This document shows positions 13,115 to 59,585 of a stretch of 64,000 nt of DNA, in pieces (the stretch's first letter is position 1; every line of letters begins with the position of its first letter). A program made the translations under genes and the position numbers. The DNA comes from Hydractinia symbiolongicarpus (taxonomy: Eukaryota; Cnidaria; Hydrozoa; Anthoathecata; Hydractiniidae): assembly GCF_029227915.1 (NCBI RefSeq), contig NC_079879.1, positions 4,774,001-4,838,000 on the forward strand, in the 5' to 3' direction. The notes under the pieces were generated by a model, which saw only the letters and a list, made by a program, of their open reading frames with translations, was not told the DNA's origin and did not search any database.

Positions 13115-16100
13115 TTAGAATTTGCCAAATACATTAGAGATGGAAGTCTTAAACGAAAGCAGACTTCCATCACAGGTCACTTGGTCTGGAAGATTATTCC
13201 ACACTTTTGCAGCTCTAAATGGGAAGGCTTTTTTGCCAAATTCCGTGTTGACCAAGGGAAGTGTGAACCTGTTTTTTGAAGCTCCTCTTGTTTGATGATT
13301 ATGACAGTTTTTTGTCAAAAGGAATTTTGAGCGCATGTAATCAGGAGCAATGTGATTCATGGCTTTGAAAACTAATATGGCATCGTTTTTGATGAGTAAA
13401 TTATTCATTGAATATTCCCTCTCTTTCCCAAGAAAGGTACGGACACATTTTAATCGTTTTTCTAGTTTTCCCAATCTACCTTGGGTGGCACAAGCCCATG
13501 CCGAGGAGCAGTAGTTGAAATATGGCATGACAAGTGCATTAATTAAAAGGTTTTTTGTGTGAGGTGTTAAACAGGATGCAATGGTTCTAATTTTAGAATA
13601 TTTAATTAGTATTTTTCTATTTATGTCATTAATGTGCTTTTCCCATTGCATTTTTTGATCAAATGTTACCCCAAGATATTTAACTTTTTCGCTCCTCTTC
13701 AAAGGAATACCCATATAGTTGATAGTTTTGTTCTCAACTTTTTTTAACTGGCTGTGGTTGCCGAAAAAGATTGTTTCAGTTTTGTCCGTATTAATAGTCA
13801 TTTTGTTATTATTCAGCCAGAGGTCGACTTGCGAAAGTTCTAACTCGACCTGGGAGACAAGGGTATCCAAGTTTTTATGAGACGAAATAATTATTGTATC
13901 ATCCGCATATAGATGGTGGTAGTTTGAATTGATGACAGATTTTAAGTCATCAATATACAAAAGAAAGAGCAGGGGCCCCAACACAGATCCCTGCGGCACC
14001 CCAAAAGCGTCTTCATGAAGCAGATCTGATCCTGAGTTGTTTACAAGAGTCAGCTGCATTCGGTCCGTTAAGTAGGACTCGAACCAGTCAAAGGCAGCAT
14101 CTCTGATGCCAAAACACCATAGTTTTTTTAACAAAATTTTATGATCAACAGTGTCAAAAGCTTTTTTAAGGTCAATGAGCACAGCACAAACAAAGTTATG
14201 TTGGTCGAGCTCAGTAAGAATAAAATCAGAGACATCGACTACTGCAGTTTCTGTGGAAAAGAGTTTTCGAAATCCGGACTGTCTGTCATTCAGGAAGTTG
14301 TGCTCAGAAATAAAATGAGACATTTGCTCATGCACTAACTTTTCAAAAATTTTCATAGGAATTGGCAAAATGGAGATAGGCCGATAATTAGTAGGATCTG
14401 TTTTATTGCCACTTTTAAAAATAGGCGAGACCCTTTTAGTCTTCCAACATTTAGGTACATAACCAGTAAATAAAGATTTGTTGAAAAGACTTGATAAATA
14501 AATACTTAAAACTGACGAACCTGCTTTTAGCAGTCGTGAACCAATTCCGTCCAAGCCTGTAGCTTTATTAAGTTTTAGTGATCTAATTATTTTTTCGACA
14601 CTTTTGGTCTCAATACGAGCCCACCGAAAATCGTGTCCGCTAACAGGTGGATTAACATTAGTAGTGTCAGAAGAAAATTTAGAGGCTAGTTTGGCACCAA
14701 CACTGACAAAAAATGAATTGAATGTGTTGGAAATTTCTTTTGGGTGAGAAGTTTCTGTACCATCGTTTTGGACTACTCGCTTTATCGAGGTAGTATTGCC
14801 TGACTTATCAGGAACCAGTTTTTTTAGGGTTTTCCAAAGTTGTTTTGGCCGTTTTTGAAAGTCCTGCAAAACGTCATTATAGTACTCGTTTTTGAGTCGA
14901 TTTTTGAGACCTATTACCTGGTTCCTTTTTTGTTTGAAAGCTTCCCAGTCTATGATGGATTTTGTTTTTGATGCTTTCCGTTTCAAGAAGTCTCTTTCTT
15001 TGATGGCTATTATTAATTCATCAGTGACCCATGCCTCAACACGGCCAGAAAATCTATGTGTTTTGAAAGGGGCATGTTTATCAGCCACTGTTTTAACATT
15101 TTTATTCAGTTTCTCACATGCTTTATCAAGGTCATCATAATTATTAAAATATGACCAGTCTAAATTCCTGAGGTCCTTCAGAAAAGCCTCTGCACTGAAG
15201 TTCTTGTAGCTACGAACCTTGCATGTTTTAGGTTCAAATTTTGGCCTTTTGAATTTTCTGATCACATAAACTAAATTGTGATCACTGATGCCTAAATCCA
15301 TGACACCAGTTTTAGAAATACAAGAACTGTTAGAAAGTATCAAGTCTATAAGAGTGCTACTATTTTCAGTAACACGAGTTGGCTCCGTAATATGTTGTTT
15401 TAGGAAAAGAGTGGAGCATAATTCCTTTATTTTGGAGGAAAGAGCATATTTTGAAAGCATGTTACAGTTAAAATCTCCCAAGATAAAAACTTCTTTCTCT
15501 TCTGGGAGCTTGTTAAAACACTGTTTAAAATGAGTACACAGGTTTTCGGTACTCTGCAAATCACTACCTCCAGGTGGCCTGTAAACCCCACACACGTAAA
15601 TAGGTTTAGTTTTTTTCAGGCACACTTTCACCCATAGTGATTCAACATTTTCGAAGTAAAGGTGTTTCAAAAGGTGGCTATCCAAGTTTTCATTAACAAA
15701 AATTAGAACACCCCCACCTCGTTTATTCCGATCATTCCTATAACAAACATAGCCATCAATTTTAACGTCATTGTCAGTGATGGTGTCATCAATTTTGGTT
15801 TCACAGATGGAGAATACATCAAGTTTTGTTTGATGTAGCAGAAGTTTAACATAGTCTAGTTTGGATGACAGACCATTAATGTTGAGATGGGCCATTTTTA
15901 AGCCCTTCCCATTTCTGATTGCCTCAAAATCAAAGTTTTCATCAATAGTAATATTGATGTTGTCCGGAATTTCGTCACCAAATGACTCCTCATTAGCAAA
16001 GGGCAAATTACGAGAAAGACAGGGACTGCAAACGAAAAACAGTTTATCTTCAGGAGTCTTCATAAATTGTTGATATTTTTTATCAGAAATACGCTCACAT

Positions 16101-16714
16101 TTTTTATGAGCCCATAATCCACACTTGTCACAAGAAAGTGCTTTGTGTGTTTTTGCCACAGGTTTTAAGCATGAAGAACAGGGATACTTTACAGGACCTG
16201 GGTTGAGGCAGATGTCCCCTGACAAGAGGATTAAAAAATAGAAATACTTGTGCCTGCTTGGCTTAAGTTTTGATAAAGCCATTAATTTTAATTGGAGAGT
16301 GAGCTGGCTTTCAGAAACTCTATTGCAGGCATCAAGTGAAGAGATAGAAAAGAAACTCCTATCTAGTCGACTCATTTCGTTGTTGTTGGGTGAGCTACTT
16401 TTGAACGAAGGTTTTGTATTGCTCAAAAATACAACGAACACAAAAATCAGTTTTAGCGTAAATGTGGGGTTTCCTACCTGAGTAAAGTTATTTTTAAGTC
16501 GTAGAGAGATCATTCTACGGTTATGTGCTCTTCCAAAACTATGTTTGAAGGATCTGAGGCAAGCCCATTTCCTTACGATGTTACACAGAAGGAGCAGCAG
16601 GAACCCACAACACAGCAAAGCTACCATATTAGATGATAGATGGATAAAAAACTGACTGGGATAAAAACAATTTATTAACAAAAACAATAATTTAAAAAAC
16701 TTACAAAACAACAA
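13115..16714 (-). CDS. LINE polyprotein: 2A-like motif, PHD-like zinc finger, APE endonuclease, reverse transcriptase
   Basis: A single 1199-codon ORF. Residues 1-165 include hydrophobic stretches. A 2A-like SGDICLNPGP ends at residue 174, followed by a PHD-type Cys/His cluster (CSSCLKPV...CDKCGLWAHKKC). An apurinic-type endonuclease follows, with LKMAHLNINGLSSK, SICETKID, ILGDFNCN and LGISDHNLVY. The reverse transcriptase shows [62 protein letters not shown] and HLYADDTII. The conserved C-terminus has FPFRAAKVWNNLP. It would nick target DNA and prime cDNA synthesis from its own RNA. No RNase H or separate gag-like ORF is seen. No internal stop or frameshift is present, so the copy is young. 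Confidence 0.95.
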   Translation of the reverse strand: MLFCKFFKLLFLLINCFYPSQFFIHLSSNMVALLCCGFLLLLLCNIVRKWACLRSFKHSFGRAHNRRMISLRLKNNFTQVGNPTFTLKLIFVFVVFLSNTKPSFKSSSPNNNEMSRLDRSFFSISSLDACNRVSESQLTLQLKLMALSKLKPSRHKYFYFLILLSGDICLNPGPVKYPCSSCLKPVAKTHKALSCDKCGLWAHKKCERISDKKYQQFMKTPEDKLFFVCSPCLSRNLPFANEESFGDEIPDNINITIDENFDFEAIRNGKGLKMAHLNINGLSSKLDYVKLLLHQTKLDVFSICETKIDDTITDNDVKIDGYVCYRNDRNKRGGGVLIFVNENLDSHLLKHLYFENVESLWVKVCLKKTKPIYVCGVYRPPGGSDLQSTENLCTHFKQCFNKLPEEKEVFILGDFNCNMLSKYALSSKIKELCSTLFLKQHITEPTRVTENSSTLIDLILSNSSCISKTGVMDLGISDHNLVYVIRKFKRPKFEPKTCKVRSYKNFSAEAFLKDLRNLDWSYFNNYDDLDKACEKLNKNVKTVADKHAPFKTHRFSGRVEAWVTDELIIAIKERDFLKRKASKTKSIIDWEAFKQKRNQVIGLKNRLKNEYYNDVLQDFQKRPKQLWKTLKKLVPDKSGNTTSIKRVVQNDGTETSHPKEISNTFNSFFVSVGAKLASKFSSDTTNVNPPVSGHDFRWARIETKSVEKIIRSLKLNKATGLDGIGSRLLKAGSSVLSIYLSSLFNKSLFTGYVPKCWKTKRVSPIFKSGNKTDPTNYRPISILPIPMKIFEKLVHEQMSHFISEHNFLNDRQSGFRKLFSTETAVVDVSDFILTELDQHNFVCAVLIDLKKAFDTVDHKILLKKLWCFGIRDAAFDWFESYLTDRMQLTLVNNSGSDLLHEDAFGVPQGSVLGPLLFLLYIDDLKSVINSNYHHLYADDTIIISSHKNLDTLVSQVELELSQVDLWLNNNKMTINTDKTETIFFGNHSQLKKVENKTINYMGIPLKRSEKVKYLGVTFDQKMQWEKHINDINRKILIKYSKIRTIASCLTPHTKNLLINALVMPYFNYCSSAWACATQGRLGKLEKRLKCVRTFLGKEREYSMNNLLIKNDAILVFKAMNHIAPDYMRSKFLLTKNCHNHQTRGASKNRFTLPLVNTEFGKKAFPFRAAKVWNNLPDQVTCDGSLLSFKTSISNVFGKF
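16193..16219 (-). other. 2A-like ribosome-skipping motif (GDICLNPGP)
   Basis: Encodes G-D-I-C-L-N-P-G-P at residues 166-174 of the LINE ORF, upstream of the PHD-like finger. The consensus is D-(V/I)-E-x-N-P-G-P; here the Glu is Cys. 2A-like motifs are known at the N-terminus of some APE-type LINEs. Whether this variant still causes peptide-bond skipping is open. Confidence 0.6.
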
Positions 16715-17430
16715 ATTAAAGAAATGAAAAGATATAAATGAAGTAAAGAAGGCAGTACAGTATATAATAAATCAAAAAGGACTTAGCTGTCAAAGCAGGA
16801 GCTCTTCAAGCTTTAGTCTTCTTTTTTCTTTCTTCGACTTAGCGCGCCAAGACCGGAGCGTTTTAGATACGTCCGACCTCAACGAGAGCTAAGCACGGAA
16901 TGAATTTGAACTGCAGAAATGATGACCGGATGTATTCATAAACTGAACCGCCACAATGTCTGTAATAGGCTAAGCAGATGTGTTCATTTTCCTATGAAGT
17001 CGCTGAAAAATGGATGTCCTAAATGTTATCCAACAAAGCAGACGTCACAAAGTCAATAACATTATTTAAAGCTTACCTAAAGTTGACCTAAATCGATTCA
17101 TAACATCTTCAGAAAAAACAATTTAACGTTTATTTTATTAAAATCACTACAGTACTCAAGAAACAGACAATGTTTACCTCATGTTTTTAAGCCTTCACCT
17201 CACTTGTTCGCCATTTTGCAAGTGACCATTTAAGAGTATAATTATGCGCCTGACGTCACTAGTTAGAAGCTCACATTCGGACCCCAGGAATGAGAGGCGA
17301 AACTTTGCGGATGTGATATGATGTGTTTTGTAAAAAAAACGTTCCACACGTTGATGAATAAGGACGAATCCTTTTTTTAAATAGTAATATGGCTTCTTGC
17401 CCACTTACCTAGTTGTCTTAACCACCAAAA

Positions 17431-19803: not shown

Positions 19804-19863
<60 letters not shown>

Positions 19864-21985
19864 AGTTTTAAGTATTTATTTATTAAGTCTTTTCAACAAA
19901 TCTTTATTTACTGGTTATGTACCTATAAATGTTGGAAGACTAAAAGGGTCTCGACTATTTTTAAAAGTGGCAATAAAACAGATCCTACTAATTATCGGCC
20001 TATCTCCATTTTGCCAATTCCCATGAAAATTTTTGAAAATTTAGTGCATGAGCAAATGTCTCATTTTATTTCTGAGCACAACTTCCTGAATGACAGACAG
20101 TCCGGATTTCGAAAACTCTTTTCCACAGAAACTGCAGTAGTCGATGTCTCTGATTTTATTCTTACTGAGCTTGACCAACATAAGTTTGTTTGTGCTGTGT
20201 TCATTGACCTTAAAAAAGCTTTTGACACTGTTGATCATAAAATTTTGTTAAAAAAACTATGATGTTTTGGCATCAGAGATGCTGCCTTTGACTGGTTCAA
20301 GTCCTACTTAACGGGCCGAATGCAGCTGACTCTTGTAAACAACTCAGGATCAGATCTGCTTCATGAAGATGCTTTGGGGTGCCGCAGGGATCTGTGTTGG
20401 GGCCCCTGCTCTTTCTTTTGTATATTGATGACTTAAAATCTGTCATCAATTCAAACTACCACCATCTATATGCAGATGATACAATAATTATGTCGTCTCA
20501 TAAAAACTTGGATACCCTTGTCTCCCAGGTTGAGTTGGAACTTTCGCAAGTCGACCTCTGGCTGAATAATAACAAAATGAATATTAATACGGACAAAACT
20601 GAAACAATCTTTTTCGGCAACCACAGCCAGTTAAAAAAAGTTGAGAACAAAACTATCAACCATATGGGTATTCCTTTGAAGAGGAACGAAAAGTTAAATA
20701 TCTTGCGGTAACATTTGATTAAAAATGCAATGGGAAAAGCACATTAATGACATAAATAGAAAAATACTAATTAAATATTCTAAAATTAGAACCATTCCAT
20801 CCTGTTTAACACCTCACACAAAAAACCTTTTAATTAATGCACTTGTCATGCCATATTTCAACTACTGCTCCTCGGCATGGACTTGTGCCACCCAAGGTAG
20901 ACTGGGAAAACTAGAACTACTGGGAAAGCTAGCCACTTTAAATATTTATTATTATTTTAGCAATTACCAAAATTGTAGTTGCATTTGTATATTGTTTTTA
21001 ACAGGTGGATGTAAAAAGTTTAGCCTTGCCTTTTTTATCTTACTCAAGCCCATACTTTCGATCAAACATTACATTATGCCCTTATAAAAATGTAAAAATG
21101 TTTAAAATTAAAGAGATAACCTTTCCTTTTTTTAGTTATACCTAACTAGCTATGATCTCTGAATATAATAAGAAAAGTGAAGTGATTTTTTTGTGAAATA
21201 TTTTAAAAAGAAGATTTACAATTCTTCTACACATGTTAGGATTACTGCCATATAGCTAGCAGCTATACTAAATTTTTATGATATATAACATAAGAAATAT
21301 TTTTAAAGCTTTTATCAAACTCAAGCAGTTTGCTCTCTTTTTAATACTGAAAATAAACGAACATTTTAAACTGTAAAGAGGTACATATATACCTACGTTT
21401 TCTTTTTATTAATTGTTGTTTGCATGAAAAAACATATATATATCGCTACAACATAAGCTCAGCAAGAACAGAGCTACCTATTACAAAACAGTTTATGTAA
21501 GCTCAGCTTAAATTCTGTTTTTAATTTTTTGTGTTTTTTATTTTTAGTTAACAGAAAAAGAAATGCAGGACCTAGAAAATGCATTTCATGATTGTTCAGA
21601 AACAAGAACTAACGGCATTAATCTGAAAGATGTCCACTACAAAATAATACGTGCAGACAAATACTCTATATATGGAAAAAAGGTCTGCAGTCTGAAGCTT
21701 ATTTTTTTCTTAACTATCTGAAGATTTTAAAATAGATTTGTAACTTGTTTTTTAATTCTAATTTTAGGACAAGCAGGGTATAGTTTTAACAAAAACAGCA
21801 ACCCTTATACTTCTATCACTGTTTTCAGAGGATATGTACCCTGGCGTTTGCGTGGAAGCAACAGAAAAACTAAGTACGATTAGCATTGATAATAAGTAAA
21901 CCAGATATTTAACGTTACTTGTTAATTTTTTAAGACTTGGTTATTTTTTATCTCAGGTGATTATTTACGCGAGAAGGGAAAATGA
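19384..21985 (+). CDS. Profilin
   Basis: Four exons: 19384-19503, 21548-21682, 21768-21873 and 21957-21985, giving 129 residues, the normal profilin size. The N-terminus [20 protein letters not shown] matches the poly-proline-binding N-terminal helix region and is followed by a core '[19 protein letters not shown]', then '[21 protein letters not shown]', '[22 protein letters not shown]'. The ATG at 19384 fits the family better than the in-frame one at 19357. Profilin binds monomeric actin and proline-rich ligands in the cytoplasm and promotes nucleotide exchange on actin. Reading through the third donor would give a short alternative tail (STISIDNK) ending at 21899. The 2-kb first intron contains a TATC microsatellite and a dead LINE copy in the same orientation as the gene. 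Confidence 0.88.
19804..19862. repeat. (TATC)n microsatellite
   Basis: About 14 units of TATC/CTAT lie directly 5' of the truncated LINE copy in profilin intron 1. Confidence 0.95.
19864..20965 (+). mobile_element. 5'-truncated, degenerate copy of the CR1/L2-like LINE
   Basis: Starts inside the reverse transcriptase at the segment encoding [16 protein letters not shown] and follows the 13115-16714 element closely, including [28 protein letters not shown] (here FIDLKKAF) and YADDTII. Several single-base indels and a stop (TGATGTTTTGG region at 20261, GCCGCAGGGAT at 20380, near 20703) break the frame. It ends with a deletion of the C-terminal region joined to the same GCCACTTTAAATATTTATTATT 3' end. 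It is dead on arrival. Confidence 0.92.
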
Positions 21986-39121: not shown

Positions 39122-42100
39122 TCATGTCGATGCATCCCATTCTGCTAACGTCAGCACTATTGGACAGTGGTCACTACCATGAATTTCCGATCTTATCGCA
39201 CTATCACATAAATGTTTTTCTAATGTCGTAGGAAGCACGAAATAATCCAATCTCCTAAAAAACGTTTTTGAGATTCAAAAATTCATTCACCCCATACTAT
39301 TACAGCGCAACAGAAAAAATAATCAACCCACAAACCGAGGGTGCAGTTTACATTAAATACTTAGAGAACAATTGCATCACTCGATAACACAAATAAACAA
39401 ACAAAAGACAGCCTTACCAGCCAACATTTCTTGCCCTTGCATTTCCTATGTAAGTCCAGTAGGTATACGCTCCCGCTTGTTTGGGATTCAAATGTCTGTA
39501 AGAGTCAAAGTAACCATCGTCCAAAAGTTTTGTAAAGTCTTCCCTTTCTTCGATAGTAAAGCCGGGACTTCTTTTGTTGCTTTTTGGATTTGCAATGTCT
39601 ATAAAAAGACATTACTTGTAAAAATATAGTTAATGTTAGCAAACCTACAAATATGAAACTACAACCCTGGAAATAAAATTTGGTTTTCAGCATGCTGATG
39701 TCAGCAAAAATCATCACCCTTTAAGATTTTAGATCTAAAGAAATAACTTAAGATCAGAAGTCCTAAATCCACTGTGAACGTTGACAAGTCCGCAGTGCGT
39801 GTCCCTTAGATTGAAACTGCGTGCTCAATTTCTTGTGGTAATGATCCGTAAAATCTTACCCTTTTCCAAAGTATAATATGTCCGGAGTTGTAGCTTTTTT
39901 AGAAATTTATCGACATCTGAATGACAGAAAGGCAATGACGAGGTATCTATGATTGCTTTTAGGGAATAAGTTTCGCAGGAATTTTTACGGAGTTTTGTCA
40001 ATTTTGCGAAAATTAGTTTCCGCAAAAATTATTATGAAAATTAAATCTCACCTTTTTTTATTTTATTTTATTCCTCTTTGAAAAACGAGTGTCATTCATT
40101 TTTTGTTTCGCGAAATTGAGCAGAATTTATTCCTTGCCAATCTATCAGCTTCCAGTATAAACTAATAAATTACAACATACTACCTATTTCGTGATGCGCC
40201 ACATTCAAATCACCACAAAATATAACAGGTTTCTTCATATTTAACTGGTTTATATACTTCTGCAATGCAATGTTCCAAGTTCGTCTGTAGTCTAGTCTAA
40301 TGTATGTACAAACATTTACTACAACATCTCATTTTAACATTAAACAATTTTGCTTGAGTAATCATGTACACCATGACATTTAGCTACAATGAAGAAAACT
40401 CATAATTATGTACCACGTGATTCAAAGAACAGTTCACTACCGTCAGTCACCAATATAGGCCATCATATGACTGCCAAAATATCGTTTGCAACCTAGTGTG
40501 AACTTCGCACTTAACACGATCAACAAAACACTTTGAGTGAAACTCTTATTACACTAATTTACATAAGAACCAGAAAAAATACCCTACATCTGTAATTTTC
40601 CTGTGTCCTCCGAGTTATCCCTAAGACTATATATGGTTTAAACTTTAATTATTTATGTACAAAGTCCTATTACGGACGCAAGTACATTTATAATCATATA
40701 ACCGAAACTTCTATGGTTTATTTTGTCTAAGACTCACCTTACAAGTTTTGCACTAGAGTTCGGCACGTCTAAAAACAATGTTAACATAAAAAGAACTTTG
40801 CACAGTAAAAACAGAGCCTAACATACAGACGTTGCAAAGTATAAGCATACTTACACGATGTGACAACATAAAAGTTGTCATACTCCGCTGTGATTAATCG
40901 TCCTTCTTTATCATGTTCTGGCACATCTGAATAAAAAACCCTCTTGCAGTTTCAGAAATCTTTTGAATTCTAAAATATCCCTCCAAACTATGAATTATAA
41001 ATCTGATTATTCTGACTTTGAGGTTAACAAAAAAATATGTGTCAAAATTTTTGTTAACTGCGCCAATTTTTGTTGAATACCGTTTTTAAAAACAAAATTG
41101 TCATACCAAGTTGTTTAGGGAACAAAAATGTGTTTCACGTCATTACAGGGTGGCCACTCAAAATTAAAAAAAAATCCAAGAACTAATCAAGAACAATTCA
41201 AGAACAAAATATTGGTTTTCAAGGACAAAAATAATTTTTAACAACTTCAACAAAAGCTAATATCTTGATCAATTCACTGACTTTATACATCAATATAGCA
41301 TAATCTGTGATAATTTGAACAAAATAAAAGAGTGTAGACATGTAGAAACCTTGATAATAAAGTTGATATCGTTCCAGAAATCATTCTTTTAGGAGTACAT
41401 AGCTACTTTGTGTACAAGTTTATAAATACTTATCAGAAAGCTAGAATTATATAGTAACAAAAGTGTAAAACTAAAAATAACAGAATATAAAAGTCACAAA
41501 AATAACAAAGTTCAATAAATAGTGTTCTTCTCTTCTTGTTTCTAAAATCTATTTATCCAGTATTATGGAAACGGTCCAAAGGATTCTATTTCTTGTGTTT
41601 TATAAAACTTTAATTCTCAATTAAAAATAGAACATATATTGTATTGTATAAGAAGATCTTCAAACTAGAAAATGAACCAGACAAAATGACGCTAATATGA
41701 AGCTAATAAATAATCCATATATCTTGAAATAAACTAATGTCAACAAACTACGAGTATTATAGAGGTTATTAGTTTTTGAGATCTTCCTCCAGTTTTTTAA
41801 TAGCCTCATCTAAATCCACCATTGTCACTTTTTTCTCTGTAATGGCTTTTCTGAATGCATTTGCTTTCAGAAACATAGCAATGTCATGGCTAACCTCGCC
41901 CTCATCAAGACAGTTGTTCATATCTTTGTTCAATGATCGAATACATGTATCTACCTCCATTCGTTTGCGTTTCACACTATCAATCTCATATGCTATTATC
42001 TTTCTCTTGTTATTCGCTGCTTCATTTTCTTTTGATTTTTTTACTTCTTCAAGGGCAAATACATACCTAGAACGGGCTGTTTTACATGATGTAACCATTT

Positions 42101-45100
42101 TGGCAGTGATTTCAATATCATGCACATCTTTCTTGCAACACTTTAAGGCATCATATACCAACCGCTGAGCACATAGTGACTTGTTTTTAAGATTTTCGAT
42201 AGTGACTTCTTTGTTGATGCTGAATCCTCTCTCGATCTGGCTTTGTCCATGTGAAATAGTGAAGACCATCACCATGACTTTCCATAAATCTTTGTATTTA
42301 TCAGAACCGTTTAAATACTCGCGGTAAAAATGATCCAAACGATTATCAGAAAGGCTAAAGCCAAGAAACTTATCTTTATGAGTCTTAGCTGTGCGTGAGA
42401 TGAACTCCTCCAACTGCAACTTGGCATTATCTGCTTCTTTTGAATTGATGTGATTTGTTGTGTAAAACTTGTCCACGACCTTTTCAAACTTAAGTAGACA
42501 GTTTTTACTTTCAATCATATTCTTTGGAACAAGACTAGACAAAGATCGAACAAAAAGGTGTTTCAATGGCGATCGTTCTTGTAGCTTTTCAATAATACCT
42601 TTAATAAGTGCAGCACATTCTCCTTTAAACTTCAACTTCTTTGTCAAACTGGCTTGAAGGGACGAAAGCAAGGTTTTGGTGGCAGTTGGTAACTTGACTA
42701 ATTCCGGTGGTAAATGATTCTCTCGTTTCTGCAAATCAATTTTAATTAAAGAATAAGCTGAATCAGCTTCATCAATAACGGTTTTCCGAATGAAAATCTT
42801 CATTAACCGACGGATAATATTTTCTAATATTTCCGAAACAAATGGCATCATTGGATTATCCGTCTGGAATTGCTTCAGATACGAAGACATCATGCTGGCT
42901 ACATCAACAAAGAATTGTAACTTTACTTGCATAAACATGTCAGTGTGGTGGGTGACCAAGGTGTCATACGAACTGTTTTTGCTTGGTTGTTTTGATTTGC
43001 ATAAGGTTTGATAATGCTTTATGACATTCACAACATTTTCCCAAACTTCCTTTGCTCGGATGGCAACAGGTTCATCCTCAACCCAGCGTGTCTGGCAAAA
43101 CATTATTGGAAAAACATCTGATTTGCTTAACTGAATATATAGATCTCTTCGAGCTGGGGAATCATTGAACAGCTTCCACATGGCCTTTAAAACCTTTTCC
43201 AATTTCCAGCCAGTTGCTTTTACGCCAGTCTGAAAGGCTCCGTGCACCACGTGTAATCCACACGAACCAACATCAATAATTTGGGGATATTCTTTCTCAG
43301 TACGATGCGATTTTAAATTTTCATAAACTTTCCAATTAGTGTTTGGTCCGTCCATGGAAAGCATGACCATTGATTTCTGGGGTAACGCATCAGTTGCTTG
43401 AAGAATCTCGTGCAAGATGTTATCTGCATTTGGGCGCCTGAAAAACCTTGAGGTTAGGTAACGTGTCTGGACTTCATAGAGATTTTCATTCCAGAAACGA
43501 ATCTGAACGTCCATTTGTTCTTCCTGTTTATAATGATTCAAACTTTCGTCAAAAAGTGTGGAATAGGTTGGCGAATTTTTAATTTCTTGGAGCAAGATTT
43601 CCATGAAATATGGGGCTAATCCATGTACGATGTAGTACGCACATTTCGTTTTTGATAACTGGAATGACTTTGCTATGTCACTGTCAGGGAACATCACACA
43701 AAATAGCTGGTTCAAATTCAAGCAAGAACGAAATGAATGATGTGATGTTAGTACTTTCAGAGCCCAACGAATTTCAGCATGGGAAACTGCTAATGTACTC
43801 ATCATTAAATCAATCTTGTTAGTGGCGGGGGAGGCGTCTTTGCTTGATGATGGCTTTGGAGGGTTACTTTTGAAGAACAGACCAGAAACTGGACTATAGT
43901 TTTTCACATTCACTTGATGCTTGTTGCCCTTAGAATGCGATGCTAAAGCACTTTTTCCCATTATAGTTATGTCTATCACTGTGTTACAAAGTCTACACAA
44001 TGCTTTGTGTTTATCTGGTCCCCTTTTCAACCATATTTTAAACTGTTCATCGCTCAACCAACTTTCATTAAAAATACTTTTTCCATGCATTCTGTTACTT
44101 TTTTTACTAGACATTTTTTTACTATTCTAAAAAGATTTTTCATAGAATTGTAAAAACTCAAGAACATTCAAGAACCAAGGGTGGAAAACATACTATTTCA
44201 AGAACAATTCAAGACCAAATAAAATTCAAGAACATTCAAGAACATTCAAGGTTTTCAAGGACGAGTGGCCACCCTGCATTATCATATGCAGTATGCTTTT
44301 ATGATCACCATGGAAACTTTGACTAGTTTTAATTTTTGGACTAATTTAGTTTTGTCATCCCTAACTGATTCCAATTTTACAAACAATGATTATTCATAAG
44401 CTTTATAAATATATATATACCGACAAAAAATCAAAAACTAAAATAAAACTAAAATTATTTAAATCCTATAGAACACAATGTTGTTTTACCCATTCCATTC
44501 TTGACTTTTATTGGTTTTTTCTTCGACCATAACCTGCGAACCACAAATAATAAATTTGTAACAAGCAAAGTATTTCAAGTACAAAAACAAACAATGTACT
44601 TACGCAACACCACTGTACCCTTTTTTTTGGGCCGCATTCCAGTACATGTAGTAATCATTTGGCTTGTCTTTAGTTAGTTTGCTTCCACTCTTCAACTGTA
44701 ATACCTAAAAGGATGTCTTTGTACATCAATTTCATCAATAAATAGTGGCTTACATTTGCAACCTTAACAAACAGCTTTAATTTTTTTACTGAAATAAAAA
44801 ATAGTACTAAATGAAAAGACATTTACTTTAGAGAAGGAAATTTTTGCATTTCGCGAACATAAACTTTGGCGTATGAGCCTTATTTAAAATTTTCGCCACA
44901 TTAACTTTTACGAATTAATAATTTTCAAGAATTTCGGAGGAATCAATTTTTCTAAACGAGAAAATTTCCTTAGAAATTTTCAAAAGGTATTATTATATTA
45001 ACAGTCAATCGTGAGTTAGTAAAACATCTCAGGAAAGTCATAAATACAACGTATGAACTTAATATCAGTTTTTTCCCGGTTAAATAAACTTTCGCGAATT

Positions 45101-50430: not shown

Positions 50431-50653
50431 TAATTTTTCTGGTCTTATTTTAACACTATTCTATTTCGATTTCTATGTATCCTGAACAGACTTTTATCTT
50501 TTATCTTATGTTTGTCATAACTTAATTTTTCCCGAGTTTATCTGAAGTTAATTTCCACAATTCACTGTCTTTTTCCAGATCTTATTCGTAATGATTTTTC
50601 AGTATTCTTACCTATTTTACCCTTTAATTTACCATTTTAGTCTTTTCTACCTT

Positions 50654-50680
50654 CTCGGGCAACTTACGGACAGTCTCCAA
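50654..50680 (+). repeat. Left terminal inverted repeat of the 7.36-kb element
   Basis: 27-bp sequence beginning CTCGGGCAACTTACGG, exactly complementary to 57984-58010. Confidence 0.9.
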
Positions 50681-51160
50681 AACGTGGTTTTACTAAGCGC
50701 ACCAACCTGACTGATAATAAAACATCCTGGTTTTTTTTATTCGTTCAGGTGAAGGATCGATTTTTGAAAAAAAGCTGTTTAAAATTTTTTAGTTGTATTT
50801 AAGTCGATATAGCCTCGCTTTCGTGATTTTATTCACCTTTTTAATTCGGTAAAACCCATATAAATAAATACGCGATCAACTATAAACGGCTTTTTTTTAA
50901 GTCGTCGACATATTATCTGTGGATTAAAAAAATATCCGATGACGCCACATACCCCTAAGTGGTGCGAACTGTAAAACACGACGTTTTCTTTGATTTTTCG
51001 TCATTTTCAGTACTTTGACGTCATTTTTACTACGGTGTCGGATTTTTTTCCCGTTATATTAAAAGACGCGCAAAAACTGCGGGAAAAGAAAAACATAAAT
51101 ATGGTAGCTTCAGCGGGAAATTTTTTTTGTGGAATAAAGTAAGAACGAATAACGAATATC

Positions 51161-54100
51161 ATGGCAAACGTTTTTGAATGCGCTTTTATGCGTGCTGAAG
51201 TATTGAATGGGATGAAAAATATAAGTCATCATCACTGTGACTTGCGTTTTTCAAATTTTATGGCGATGTTTCCTGATGTATCCATAACGAAAAATCATTT
51301 TGACAGAAAGTCCAAGGAACTTACTGCGTTTGTGAGAAAAAAAAAGTGGAACGGTAAAGTAAGGGAAAAATACCTAGATGATTTTTCTCAAGACAATTGG
51401 AAGAAACTCAAAGATAATGAGAAGATTAGGCATACTATACATGCATGTCAAGCATGCAGTTTATTAGAAAAAAATAAAAATACATTTCCTGTTTCAACAT
51501 CACACAGAACAAAAAAAATCAACAATGTTAAAAAACCATTAACAGATATATCAAACACTGTAAATAGTACGAATAATAAAACTCCAACTACAACAAATAA
51601 TACGTCCACACCTGTAAATGTAACATATAACAACATATCAACGATTACTACTCCAAACAGTATCAACACAACACCAGTTCATCCAATCACCATAAATTTG
51701 ACAATTCCTCAAACAAAGACTGACATGTCATATATGAAAACAACGGCAGAATCTGTACTTAATAGTATCAACTCAAAATGGGACAGTATATATGACACTC
51801 CATTCACAAAGGTTCTCACAAAGGTCAAATCAGCTAATATTGCTCAAGTGAAGTCCAAGTCTGATAAAAAGAAAGAGCTTAGAGAACGGAATAAAATAAT
51901 AAAAAAATCCTTGGAAAAAAAATGTTTTGGTGAAAATAAAGCAACAGACACAATCTTTGGCATCAGACAATCAAAAGCTTCCTACAAAAAATCAAGATCG
52001 ATTCAATACTTTGAAAGTAAAGAAAATTCAATTAAAAGAATGATAGGTATAGCTATATATATTTTTTAATTTTAATCTTTCACCTGTACTGTATCTCCAT
52101 TCACCTACAGGCACTGGTTTTTCTTGAATGGTATTATTTTATTGTTGCATTTTTTGAATATAAATTTATAAATAATTATATACACGCATATATATATATA
52201 TAAACAAATATTAAAATGAAAAAATAAGCAATCAACATATATCATGATGAAGTATATAACCCCACGAAATTAACACGCAGAAATAATTAAAACTATGTTA
52301 TGAAAATAAGTTGCTGTGTGAATAAATGCAAAAAAAATAGCAAAAATAAATAAAACCTTAGGTTCGTAGAATTCAGTCTCGCAAATCATTATTGACTAAA
52401 CTAAAAACTGTAAAAATTATTTTAAACAAAATATATTAAGGAGTTGTTTCTAACCATAGGGCGGACAAAATTACAACAAAATCAAGACGTAGATGACACA
52501 CCAATCAAGAAAAAACGACATAGTCCAGATCCAAACAAATTAAATTTCGATCGTCATGCTCTACTTGAAGAAGTGTTAGGAATGGATGTTGGTAGTAAGG
52601 TATATCTTCATGTATCTGTTAACATTTGTGTTGAACACATTGCCATTTATATCATTGTCCAATTTTGAACAAAAAAATAACTTGTGTGACACATCGATTT
52701 ATTTCCTCTTGCAGATAAATTACTCTGACTTGGCCCGAAAATATCATATACCTGGAACTACTGGAAATACAGTTGTTAAGGAATTTCTCGAAGATAACGG
52801 TGTTGATTTATCAAAATTTGCAAACAATTTTGTTAACCCATGCAAATATCGTCGAAAATATGAAAAGTTTCCAGGTGAGTACCTAAAAAAAAGAAGAATT
52901 GATATATAATGTACGCTTCCAACATTGTGTCTTGTCATCAAATCTGTATAATTTATAGCAAAAGATTCTTAAATTCTTTCAAGTGTTACAGTAGATTTCT
53001 GTGTGTAGAACAATGTTTACCTAAAACACATTGCATCTTCACAATACTTTTAGAAATATGTATTATACAAAAAGAGGATGTATATATCGTAGCGTTTGTA
53101 CAATCAACTTAACATTCCTTGTTCAGAAAGAGAGATATTGAGAACATTTCATTTTTTACAGATGGAAGTGGAGTGTCGGTTCCTATGCCCCCTACATTTG
53201 AAAAAATAAAAGAGGAGATACTGAAGAAGATTGAATCTGGAGATATTCTATTAGGATCTTTGGTTGAGCCAAAAAAATATAAAAAAGCTGTGATAAAGAA
53301 TGGAGTGATTTTCAATGAAGAATTCACAGTATCTGGTCGTTGTATACCACTGAGTGACATTCGCAGAAAGATTTTTGAAGAACATCAAAGTTTGGGGATT
53401 ATGAGAAATCCAAAAGGTGCTTTGACAAGATACTTCATACTATGGTCTGATCATGCATCACTTTTGAGTGCTGGCCATTTACTATTGACTGTCAAAGTTG
53501 TTTACGATGACAAGTTATTTTATACAGATGAGGAAATGTATGCAAAAACAGGTATGTCATTTAGAAGTATTGTTATTGATCACCAAAATTCTAGATATCT
53601 AAAATCAAAAATATTTACTTTTTTTACTTTGATAGTAGACATTAAATGCCACTTAATAATGTTCGCTAAATTAAATTTTAGGAATTTGTCATGATGTTCA
53701 AGAACTTGTGGAGCGTCCATCCGTTTATATTATTGGTTTTGCCCAGGATAGCATTGCAGAGAAGCTTTCATATGTCGAAACCAGACTTAATGACATTAGA
53801 AAATTGTCTGACCCATTAATTGTCAATGATAAGAAAGTGGTTGATGTGATAAGGTTTTTTCATGGTATGTTGATGGAATTCAATTCACACAAGTTTAATC
53901 TGCATAATGCAACAATTTATTTAAAAAAGGATAACAGGAATTCATTTATATTTTAGGTGACCATCCTGAAATACAATACGAGAGTGGTAACTCTCATGGT
54001 GGAAACTTTCCCTGTCTTTGTGGATGCAAAAAATCAAGATTTACAGATATAGCCCATGTCTACAGTAACAAAATAGTGTCCTTGGAACAAAGAAGGAAGA

Positions 54101-57048
54101 AGGTACATAAATTTCAAAATAAGTTGTTCGTTATTTGTAATTTTGACAAAAAGTATAGAAAATTATTTATTCCAGGTAAATGAAACAAAATATGAATGAC
54201 AAATTTATAGATTTCTATTACATAACATTAACTATTTTTAACTAACTATTTTTGATTATTTTAGGTAATATCAGGCCCAGCAGGACAACAACAAAAAGCT
54301 GTGTCTCCATTTCAACAACTCAATGTGGAGAAACTGGGTCTTGAAGTAAATTACAGAAACCTTGACCGTGACTTACCAGTTCATCAAAAGTTGCACAAAA
54401 AGGACCTTGAACAGCTACTAAAAAATCATTTGACAGGTTAGGGCTATTTTATTTTTGATAAACTAAAATAACTTTTGCAAATTTTGGCCTTTTTCGCAAA
54501 AGTTTTATATAAGTTGATGTTAGTTGATATTTGTCTGAAAATTTTTCTACAAATAAAGCAAAAGAAAATCAGATATGTTGAGGAAAATTGAAAAGCATAA
54601 AAACAATTCTGATTTTATTTTCAAAATTACACTCATTAAAATTTATAAATTCAGTCAACAATTTTTTTTAAAGGAATTATCCGTGTTCCAGCTCTTTGCT
54701 TTGGAAATGAACATAGTACAATGGAGTCCTTGAATCTTGCTAATTATGAAGTGATGCCGATTGAACCACTGCATGATTGTAAAGGACATATCAAGAATTT
54801 GTGGGATGTTTTGCATGAAGTGTTGACACCTCAAGAGAATAAAATTTTTCAACAGTCCCTAGATGCCACATATGGTTCGAAGGACAAGGTGAGAGGATCT
54901 GACTATCGGCTGTCATCAATAGTTGTTTACCAATCAATGCAAAGCACTTGCAGAAAGGAAATCAAAGAGTTGTTGTACACATTGATGGAGCTAGTTCGGT
55001 TATCATATCTTAAATCCCAAAAAAGGTCCCCACGAATTATTCTACGATTACATAATATTAGTTTCCAGCATGCCATGTTGTGCCAAGATCTGTTTGGGCA
55101 TAATTTAAAGTCAATGTCTACACAAAAGCTTTATGGCATTTATTATCATGGCTTGACAACACATTTAGCAGAAGTATCGAGAATTATCTCACCAAGCTCC
55201 TTACACACAGAGAATGAAGAACAGCTATTCAGCAAAATTAATCAAATAAGTTTGAGAACATCAGCCAGATCCTTAGAATCCATACGTGATAATAGCATCA
55301 TCCGTATTCAAGCTGAACAGAAATTTATTGCCAAAGAATGTTCTAGAAAATCAACTAACACATCTAAAATATCGAAATTTTCAGAGAGTGTACTTGGTAA
55401 GTCTAAAATATCTGTTTCTACTGGCTTTCTAATTCATGTTGGCATTCAGAAATTGCTGAGACGAATGTCCACATGAAAACAAAAGTTTTCAATTCACATT
55501 GGCAAATATTTAACTGTTATTTGTGTACTGCAGCATTTGGCCGCAAAACAAATATAAATTGCAAATGTCGAACACGAGTTTGCCAACGCAAAACAGGAAA
55601 ATGTCATTTTACGTAGGCAATGTTCTGTCGTCATGGAATAAACTGAAACAGAAAGGCTGTTCTATGTGATAATTAAATATATTTTGAAGTGCTTGACTTA
55701 ATAAAAAGTCTGGTTTGATATTCAAACATTAATCTTTCTAATTTTGTTTAAAATTTTAACATGTGATAAAAAGTGTATGATTGTCATTTTGTTTCGAAAT
55801 AAACTTTTTTGAATTTTCAGATGAGAAAAGAAGTTGTTTTAACATTAACTTACCTCTACGGAAATATCAGGCACACTTGGAAAGAATTGCAGATTTTTTG
55901 CTCTATGGTAATGGTGTTTGGTGGCATAGAGAAAATGATATTATCATATTTCATGATGGAAAAGAGGATGATGATTTCAGAGTTGAAGGGCCTTTGATGA
56001 CAAATTTCAAACAAGACAACCTGCAATCAGTAGCAAAAGATGTAGAAGCTTGTTGGAAGAAATGCGTTGATCGTGGTATTGAATTGCCAATCACAAAGAT
56101 AAATACTTTCGACGAAAATGGAGATTTAATAGAATGCAAGGCACTTGAAGAAGTAAGTAATACGTCATTCTTGGCTTACTGTCTGTAGGATGGGTATATT
56201 AATAGCCCCCAACTCAAATTCCTCTGTATCAAGTCTATCTCTACACTTTCTTACCCAATTATCCTCCTTCATTCTTGCAAGTGTCCTAACCAACTTAATC
56301 TACTTATATCTGGACAACATCTATCTTTAATTCTACAGATACCTAGCCTGCTTCTTAGCTCATATGAACTCTTTCTTACTCTCAGACTGGCGTTACAAAT
56401 CCAAAAGCAAACATAACAAGTAATATCAAACTGATGGCTGATGATGATAATGCAGAATATGATAATGCGTATATATCACATGATAATAATGAAGAGATAG
56501 AAATGGAGATAGATATCACATTAGAACAGCAACCTTCCTTATTGGATTTAGAAGTTGACCAAGCTGTTCATTTTAAGAAAGAAACATCAAACACAATTAC
56601 ATTGGAACAACAACCTTGCATAGCTGACTCAGTTACTAATCCTAAAAAAACTGCAGAAAATAGTAAGTTGGAAAAGATCTGTAGAGACAGACAGACGAAA
56701 GCTGACCAAAACCCAATTCTTGAATCAGGTGTATGCAAGAACATAATGTATGTTCTTGGCTATTCAGATAAATTGAAGGACTTCGACCGTCATCATATGT
56801 CATATAAGCTGACTAAAAGTGAACATTCAAGAAAAAAATGTAGAGCATTTATCATTCATTTTCGCGAAAAAGTGATGGCTGTTCAGCATGAAGCAGAAAA
56901 AGCTACGAAAGATTGGGAAAAAGACTTCATAGCAAAAAATTTTAAGATGCCGAATACAGAAGAGCTTAAATCAAATAAAATTTACATGGAGAAATATAAA
57001 TTAAATTACCACGCCAAAAAAATTCTTGAACAATGGACAAATATTTAG
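51161..57048 (+). CDS. RAG1/Transib/CMC-like transposase of a TIR element (1264 residues)
   Basis: Ten exons: 51161-52046, 52460-52599, 52715-52874, 53162-53551, 53682-53864, 53957-54102, 54265-54436, 54674-55396, 55821-56152 and 56386-57048. All nine junctions keep phase and no stop interrupts. Residues 1-295 are basic with an Asn/Thr-rich linker, perhaps DNA-binding. The core shows LWSDHASLLSAGH (Asp492), RFFHGDHPE (Asp588) followed 18 residues later by CLCGC (606-610), EPLHDCKGHIKNLW (723-736), YYHGLTTHLAE (His851, His856) and LHTENEEQLF (Glu872). In RAG1 the order is Asp600, Asp708, a C-x2-C 19 residues on (727/730), H-x4-H (937/942) and Glu962 before 'LF'. I infer an RNase H-fold DDE transposase with inserted zinc-binding elements. 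The C-terminal exon is acidic then Lys-rich. A nuclear role in cut-and-paste transposition is expected. Domestication cannot be excluded, but the intact TIRs argue for a mobile gene. Confidence 0.75.
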
Positions 57049-57983
57049 TTTTTCAGCAAAAGGATCAATATGCGCTTTTAAATTTTAAGAAGCATATTTT
57101 TCAACAAATTAGCCAGAGCTAGCTAAAATAAAAACATTTGATATATATATATATACAAAACTTTTTTTCTGATACGTTTCGTATGGGAAATGTATTTTTA
57201 TATTATTGTGGATCATCATTTTGCACAAACGAAAAAACAAGAACAACACGAGAAGGAAATTAATACCTTTAAAAAGATATCAAAGTATTTGTTGTTGCTT
57301 TGACGGGCTTAATACGCAATAATCTTGTATTGTGCAAAACTTAGAAGAAATAGCTAGCTAGCTAACAGTCTTAAAAAGGTCCATTTTTACAATCCATTAT
57401 GTGGGTTATATATCTGCACCCTAAATCAAGAGAATACTAGCTAAACTGCTTTTCTAATTAAGCTACTCTTTCGTACAGAGGTAGGATTTGCACCCACAAC
57501 TATTTAGCTAAGTAATCTGCAGTGATCTAAGAACTACATAAACAGTTTAATTTCTTGACTAACTGTTTTTATATTGTATATATCTATCTATGTATATATC
57601 TATGTATATAACAGCCAGAAAGGCTATGTATAGCTCTGACAGTTACAAAGTTTAGGTAAACACTTCCAGAAATATATAGCTAGCTTTTGCTATAGCTACT
57701 ATATATATAATTTTGACAGGTAGCTATAGGCAAATAGAATATAGAAAATTTCAAATATATAGAATAAATAATATTACAAACCTTGTTTTTACTGCGTGAT
57801 CACAAATACCTTAACAGCCAAATGTATGGTACAACCAACCATTTCTGTCAACACAAAAACACAAAAATGGCGGCACCTTCTTGTCTTCTTCACAAACTTG
57901 AAACGACAAAAAGCACGTCAGATAGCAAAACGCGGTAGACGATTATGATAAAACGCGGTATACCCGTGTTTTACCCGAAATAA

Positions 57984-58010
57984 TTGGAGACTGTCCGTAA
58001 GTTGCCCGAG
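57984..58010 (-). repeat. Right terminal inverted repeat of the 7.36-kb element
   Basis: Reverse complement of 50654-50680. Confidence 0.9.
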
Positions 58011-59585
58011 TTTATGCTGTTTATGTTTTAATTTTAAGCTTATAACAGGACAAACACTGATAACAGTTTCTTTATATAAAATATTTTGTAAATATGTATT
58101 TAGAAACTGAAGTTTTTTATCCTGCATAGATATTCGCGAATAAATAAATAAATAAATCAGTGATATATTTAGAGCATCTTGAGTGTTACATATTCTTTTA
58201 CCCATAAAGATATATATGTCCTGTTTAAAACTATTAGCACCGAATTGACAAAATTGATTGATTGGTTTAAAACGAATAAATTATCTCTTAACATACATTT
58301 TTTGATAAACTTAGTAAAAAAAGGATGATATCCCTCTTAGGTTACGTATGAACATAAAAAGAGAATATTCGATGATAATGGCGACTAATTGTGATTGTGT
58401 AATTGTAATTGGGTTGTAACCTTTTGGCTGCGGTCTCTAAGACCGTACATTATGTAACGAAATAACTACGCCGGTATAAATAATACAATAAAATTTTTGC
58501 TACCAAAGGTTAACATATGATGGAAAGAACAATGTTGTCTACTAGTTGTTATCTTTCGCTTTCTGATGTTGTTTTTATAGCTACCTAGAGCTACTGCAAT
58601 TTGTGCCATGGATAGAGATAAAGATCACAGACTTATCAGTTTTGATATCTATTTTTAACAAGAATAAAGGATATAATATATTGAAATAAGGTGGCAAAAT
58701 TTAAAGTTCGTCCCCACAAGCAATTATATAGGCTATTTCTAAACCAAGTGCACGAAATTTGAACTTTTTAAACACGTTTACTTGTCTATATTTACAACGA
58801 ACTAAAGATCCTAGCTTTTGTCAACTCTGCAAAATGTCCTAAAAAGTTCAATTGTCTCAAAATTTTGGTGACGGATTGTAAATGGGGTAACGACAGGCCG
58901 GAGGCTTGTGTTTATTGTGTTTTTAATGGACTTAAATAAAGGTTATCTTGTGTTTTATTTGAACCGCTATTGCAAAAATTATCTTATTGAAAATAAGTCA
59001 ACAAATGTGCAACACACTGTGCTTAATAATTCCTCTACCTGTTGTTTGTTACGTTTCCCCTCGGCTAGTCTTTAATAATAATCGCCGTATTTTGTGTATC
59101 ACATGGGCTGATTTCGTATATAGAATGCTCGAAATATTTTTGGCCGAAATAGTAAACGCGATATATTTTTTAAGAATTTTTGTTGAATTCCCACGGTTTA
59201 AAAACTAGTCTAATAAGTAATATTGCTGTTACAGTTTGCGTGCCATCTTGAAGTATTTGTTGACATAAGAAACGTCGCACAATTAAATTTGCATTGCCAG
59301 GTTATCGCAGTTAAACTAATTTCCAGCATTGAACTCCTGTTCCATTAAAATTTTCCGTGATGCTGAAGAAACTGAGAATATCGAAATCACACATAGGGAA
59401 ACAAAACAGTTTTCGTTTAATCACAAGCAGGAAGAATTATTCACGGTTGTGTTTATTGTTGTAATAACATATCATATTTTCTTAAATTCTCAAAATTAAC
59501 ACACGTCATGGGTATTGAACGGAGAAAACAAAAATTAAAAAAATATGGTTCTGAAGGTTATGTTGCGTTGGTTCATCGATTGACA
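58011..59585. other. Intergenic region, no gene seen
   Basis: AT-rich, only short chance ORFs. No splice-consistent exon, tRNA or inverted repeat of note. Confidence 0.5.

Follow-up and report, generated by a model that had tools for sequence, protein, structure and literature searches.

A ten-exon transposon family of the hydroid Hydractinia symbiolongicarpus with a transposase of predicted RAG1-core fold

The stretch of 64,000 bp analysed here and called the window (Hydractinia symbiolongicarpus, assembly GCF_029227915.1, contig NC_079879.1, positions 4,774,001 to 4,838,000) contains a DNA transposon whose gene encodes a transposase of predicted RAG1-core fold (Table 1). Its termini read CTCGGG..CCCGAG and belong to terminal inverted repeats with 27/27 complementary positions (100%), as was recognized already in a first-pass annotation made from the sequence alone. 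Between the ends lies a single gene of 1,264 codons closed by one terminal stop, its ten exons being separated by nine GT-AG introns, again in agreement with that annotation, and the residues named there (Asp492, Asp588, Cys606/608/610, His851, His856 and Glu872) are all found at the claimed positions. The exon boundaries were set by eye. Their joins appear to be correct because the product of the NCBI gene LOC130645997 (P0001, the best match in the protein searches) corresponds to residues 404-1264 of the joined protein without gaps at 99.65% identity, and because the relatives P0002 (over residues 1-1031) and P0019 (over 247-1261) align collinearly with it.

The left 301 bp of the element have at least 37 matches in the 481-Mb assembly (the count is a lower bound), 25 of them at 100% identity (rounded) on 12 contigs, which excludes a chance origin of the element. 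They comprise 22 full-length matches at 100% (window included), three whose identity rounds to 100% but whose scores are slightly lower, and a further 12 with 81-92% identity, some partial, that represent older subfamilies. Twenty of the 22 exact-match copies were fetched with 300-bp flanks, the window copy being already in the set and the C1 copy not having been retrieved whole. Full length is reached by 12/20 (7,347-7,359 bp, at least 99.8% identical to the window element), whereby further copies with matching termini are established. Five others (L013, L021, L022, L025, L027) have internal deletions with both ends kept, L010 and L024 match from the left over 3,088 bp and 1,798 bp only, and L014 consists of two pieces with extra sequence between them, its fetched stretch ending five bases before the right end. 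The whole frame is intact in 12 of the 13 full-length copies (the window and 11 of the 12 fetched ones), the exception being L012 with a deletion in exon 10; the GT-AG sites are kept in all 13. According to passages of PMC11067881, about 60% of the repeats of the Hydractinia genome have no classification, and among the classified ones DNA transposons are the most abundant class.

In a scripted test 18 of 18 copies (17 fetched plus the window) showed a target duplication of 2 bp with no dinucleotide in common, and in two more, C11 and C3, for which short flanks were read, the duplications are TT and GT. Duplications of 2 bp and of variable sequence are thus present in 20/20 copies with both ends read; the count leaves out the copy at C5:27.6 Mb, whose left end is damaged, and the C1 copy, which lacks a right end at the distance where one is expected. 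The TT that had been proposed as probable target site is indeed the duplication of the window copy; as the dinucleotide varies among copies, however, the target has no sequence specificity. For the same reason TTAA and TA were rejected as targets, and a 4-bp duplication was rejected as well, the longer match (ATAT) occurring in L011 alone among the 18. From the near-identical copies and the duplication at all 20 it follows that the family moved recently.

Several young copies (L009, L018, L023, L028 and others) lie inside tandem repeats, and their flanks match one another at shifted positions. Flanks fused after one duplication had been taken out align across the joint with a neighbouring repeat: for L009 and an L014 flank there are two such alignments, one free of gaps (298 bp, 92.6%) and one with a single gap (295 bp, 91.2%), and L018 aligns with the flanks of L023 and L028 (86.5% and 89.4%, one or two gap openings). 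These matches are related repeat units and not allelic empty sites.

Concerning the ends, the motif AAAACGYGGT was picked by eye once they had been read; its three matches in the whole window against 0.24 expected, all near the element ends, are therefore a post hoc statistic, and the copies can be considered as possible subterminal binding sites. The older related copies L039, L040, L042 and L043 (83-85% identical) retain the terminal pattern CTCGGGNAACTTACGGACAG almost unchanged, so the end sequence is conserved across subfamilies.

The predicted model of the protein is an RNase H DDE transposase with RAG1-core fold, which begins at the dimerisation/DNA-binding domain and reaches the C-terminal domain, so that the RNase H core expected for a RAG1-like transposase is present in the model. 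Within the families on the VIA list, which the fold comparison covers, the nearest solved structures are RAG1, HzTransib and BbRAGL. P and hAT elements produce 8-bp duplications, unlike those found here. The Z for the P element/hAT group (Hermes) is weaker than for RAG1, and the C/DxxH signature of this group (PMC10045372) is not the one observed here. A search of the viral folds in BFVD returned no match at E<=0.001.

On the level of sequence the relationship is much less visible. Neither Pfam RAG1 (PF12940) nor Transposase_21 (PF02992) is listed for any of 52 family proteins, namely the window protein, 18 rows of alignment A1, 29 rows of alignment A3, P0021, P0023, P0030 and P0037 (threshold E<=10, or E<=0.5 for the 29 A3 rows; HMMER filters lose most matches above E 0.1). 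The window protein has no Pfam family at all at E<=10, which illustrates that transposases of RAG1 fold can escape sequence profiles. As a control, a RAG1 fragment was matched by PF12940 at 6.6e-221. In profile-profile comparison hhalign did align the family with mouse RAG1 along the Asp-to-Cys stretch, but along this stretch only and without significance (P 0.12). The core profile reaches 3.5 bits against RAG1, a score attained by 2/1,000 shuffles (724 being reported at all). Its local matches are the Cys stretch, a YEV-x-H stretch differing from that paired with His726, and the region from H-x4-H to LF. Sequence similarity to RAG1 is near the limit of detection. In the PDB the window protein itself found no match, whereas six chains including OspA were matched by profile A1 (E 0.32-2.4) and two by profile A2 (E 0.12 and 2.7); the latter two we take to be SAP domains.

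Comparison of the spacings (window/RAG1) gives D-D 96/108, D-C 18/19, C-C 2/3, C-middle H 118/65, middle H-H 125/142, H-H 5/5 and H-E 16/20, where the position of RAG1 Asp600 is taken from the first-pass annotation and the pairing of His726 with RAG1 His795 is our own choice. The Asp-to-Cys distance and the H-x4-H box noted in that annotation were confirmed by counting. This applies also to the glutamate in front of Leu-Phe: Glu872 lies five residues ahead of it like RAG1 Glu962, and for this reason it is preferred as the last catalytic residue over Glu875. Against this choice, Glu875 is equally invariant, and in the hmmsearch alignment it is Glu875, not Glu872, that meets RAG1 Glu962, with a gap.

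Three protein searches yielded the relatives P0001-P0051, with sources that include Hydractinia, Clytia and two Branchiostoma records. They were aligned as A1 (18 rows), A2 (49 rows) and A3 (29 rows). Among the A2 rows with a letter at the respective position, Asp492 and Asp588 are each conserved in 46/46, Glu872, Glu875, His851 and His856 each in 48/48, His726 in 49/49, Cys606 in 46/47 and Cys608 in 47/47. The window protein has CxCxC at the cysteine motif and 37/49 A2 rows show CxxC by pattern; P0016, P0034 and P0037, missed by the pattern, have CxxC on reading by eye. The added length from the cysteine pair to His726 falls where relatives have a SAP-domain match (12/18 A1 rows and 11/29 A3 rows at E<=10, with P0005 and P0008 above the Pfam cut-off); in the window protein itself no SAP domain is matched.

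A tree of 47 core sequences, midpoint-rooted for drawing only, resolves well-supported clades including groups of 26 and 12 members. P0001, P0002, P0003, P0019, P0020 and P0021 fall in one group, P0050 and P0051 form a separate clade, and amphioxus P0015 sits on a long branch; P0017 and P0018 (left out of A2) as well as P0022 and P0023 (core too short) are not included. Outside these sources, 37 pattern matches in viral contigs (one pattern) and 35 in bacterial and archaeal genomes (A1 with two patterns) contained no relative.

Directly before the N-terminal domain of the transposase, 10/51 relatives carry a 2A-like motif (DxExNPGP, twice HPGP) according to a pattern search, namely P0018, P0025, P0026, P0028-P0031, P0033, P0034 and P0037. 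The N-terminus of P0016 is MSEKNPGPG. Two of the ten, P0030 and P0037, have upstream of it an SGNH/GDSL hydrolase (PF13472) and, by eye, hydrophobic stretches. No report of 2A-like peptides and SGNH hydrolase on DNA transposons was found among the titles of the literature searched.

Very probably, the element is a cut-and-paste transposon, autonomous and recently active, with a DDE transposase of predicted RAG1-core fold, and belongs to the broad CMCT kind as a distinct lineage. This agrees with the first-pass suggestion of a poorly described, intron-rich relative of the RAG/Transib/CMC clade, which is supported by the predicted fold, the C and H motifs and the ten-exon gene. Assignment to a distinct lineage outside the named superfamilies is based on the lack of all tested Transib/RAGL features other than the fold (duplication length, ends, partner gene and sequence profile) and of the CMC ends and PF02992. 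Distinctness is meant with respect to the named superfamilies tested, the comparison with CMC covering the described motifs, duplications and ends and the profile PF02992. The family was not found in the titles, abstract openings and passages of the literature searched.

A divergent EnSpm/CACTA-type (CMC) transposon, possibly already deposited in Repbase under EnSpm, is a tentative alternative and the best of those considered. According to passages of PMC12730594 the CMCT clade unites EnSpm/CACTA, Mirage, Chapaev, Plavaka, ESTA and Lanisha with Transib/RAG and is characterized by duplications of 2-5 bp and C(2)C and H(3-4)H motifs, the ends of CMC elements being CAC or CA..TG "in most cases"; a passage of PMC4455052 has Chapaev and Mirage merged into EnSpm in Repbase. 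The element resembles this clade in the C and H motifs that follow its second Asp and precede its Glu, and in its duplication, which lies also within the 2-4 bp of CMC elements. H-x4-H is exact and invariant, and CxxC occurs in at least 37/49 rows. Furthermore, Asp stands 18 residues before CxxC, counted by eye, in a plant tnp2 piece, just as in the window protein. On the other hand, neither CAC nor CA..TG is found at the termini, which read CTCGGG..CCCGAG, and PF02992 is listed for 0/52 family proteins, whereas it finds the plant tnp2 piece at E 2e-83.

It is unlikely that the element represents a true Transib or RAGL transposon with altered ends, despite the nearest solved folds and the occurrence of such elements in cnidarians mentioned in passages of PMC9435367, which also give a 5-bp duplication for one RAGL element. 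In general, the known Transib and RAGL elements have CAC ends and 5-bp duplications. Here no end resembles CAC, the heptamer-like start of recombination signal sequences; the element begins with CTCGGGCAAC, and the termini are indeed unlike those of Transib, ProtoRAG and CACTA, as had been stated. The duplication has 2 bp and not 5 bp in all copies read, in contrast with ProtoRAG and BbRAGL as well as with HzTransib. Pfam RAG1 is not listed, and a RAG2-like frame was not found: among stop-to-stop frames on either strand inside the ends, save those overlapping the gene's own exons in its direction, none exceeds 91 codons, a gene of many short exons not having been searched for. From RAG1 itself the window protein differs in CxC instead of CxxC and in the SAP-like insert that lengthens the distance from the cysteine pair to the middle histidine (118 versus 65 residues). 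The fold match begins after the nonamer-binding domain, with RAG1 domain limits as we assume them.

Membership in Academ, or in some other named animal superfamily for which no structure has been solved, is quite unlikely; passages of PMC10294476 describe Academ elements as long, their mean in bivalves being 5,565 bp. That the locus is a decayed or domesticated, immobile copy, as the NCBI annotation of one copy as an uncharacterised gene might suggest, has a negligible probability in view of the 25 near-identical matches, the 12/13 intact frames and the duplications at 20/20 copies.

Going beyond the distinct lineage within the broad CMCT kind, we regard it as an evenly balanced question whether the family is an undescribed superfamily-level lineage of animals, present at least in hydrozoans and amphioxus, that combines RAG1-core architecture with 2-bp duplications, unrelated ends and SAP in the zinc region, some members of another clade carrying 2A-like peptides and an SGNH esterase fused in front of the transposase.

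The element integrates by staggered joining, as its termini, its dispersed copies and their 2-bp duplications show; cut-and-paste is deduced from the DDE fold together with deletion derivatives that keep their ends. Two transposase subunits would bind the inverted repeats, and an active site of Asp492, Asp588 and Glu872 (alternatively Glu875) would cut the ends with a divalent metal, probably by nick and hairpin by analogy with RAG1 and Transib. Zinc may be held by Cys606/608 and His851/856, perhaps also by His726, like in ZnC2/ZnH2 of RAG1, and the SAP-like module within this region may add a DNA contact. The freed ends would then join nearly any target sequence with a 2-bp stagger, giving the 2-bp duplication. 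Internally deleted copies with both ends were presumably moved in trans.

RAG1 derives from a transposase. A young, apparently intact family with RAG1-like predicted core, different stagger and different ends can therefore serve as a comparison on what is possible with the RAG1 fold and, if it is indeed an undescribed superfamily-level lineage, as an extra branch for inferring the origin of this fold and the setting of duplication length. As near-identical intact copies reside in a laboratory hydroid that serves as stem-cell model, activity is testable and could yield a gene-transfer tool.

Table 1. Features of the element, in window positions.
Feature	Position	Strand	Basis
Whole element, 7,357 bp	50654..58010	+	Pair of terminal inverted repeats; 12/20 fetched copies full length, >=99.8% identity
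Target duplication TT, 2 bp, left copy	50652..50653	.	Flank comparison; other dinucleotides in other copies
Left terminal inverted repeat, 27 bp, CTCGGGCAAC...	50654..50680	+	Arm comparison
Subterminal motif AAAACGTGGT	50679..50688	+	Motif search, post hoc
Exon 1, from residue 1; HxxxCxxC-bearing N-terminal domain followed by low-complexity linker	51161..52046	+	Joined translation; aligns to P0002 residues 22 onward
Exon 2	52460..52599	+	Joined translation
Exon 3	52715..52874	+	Joined translation
Exon 4; Asp492, first catalytic Asp (predicted)	53162..53551	+	Joined translation; Asp in 46/46 A2 rows with letter
Exon 5	53682..53864	+	Joined translation
Exon 6; Asp588, second catalytic Asp (predicted), and Cys606/608/610	53957..54102	+	Joined translation; A2 conservation
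Exon 7; SAP-like insert, Cys pair to His726	54265..54436	+	SAP match position in relatives; window protein itself not matched
Exon 8; His726 (PLHD), His851-x4-His856, Glu872, Glu875	54674..55396	+	Joined translation; A2 conservation
Exon 9	55821..56152	+	Joined translation
Exon 10; acidic linker, C-terminal helices, stop	56386..57048	+	Joined translation; helices in predicted model
Two subterminal AAAACGCGGT motifs (57927-57936 and 57950-57959)	57927..57959	+	Motif search, post hoc
Right terminal inverted repeat, 27 bp	57984..58010	-	Arm comparison
Target duplication TT, 2 bp, right copy	58011..58012	.	Flank comparison

In the window as a whole no Rfam family was found at gathering scores. Away from the element, an uninterrupted frame of 785 codons at 41769-44126 (-) resembles by eye a BED/hAT-derived or zinc-finger transposase-like gene and has, from its first Met, no Pfam match at E<=0.1. 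A further open frame of 1,218 codons at 13115-16771 (-) suggests, when read by eye, an endonuclease-reverse transcriptase of CR1/jockey type. It is preceded by a hydrophobic stretch and the 2A-like LLSGDICLNPGP, a front end resembling that of the transposase relatives, and a partial copy of this frame is located at 19804-20262 (+).
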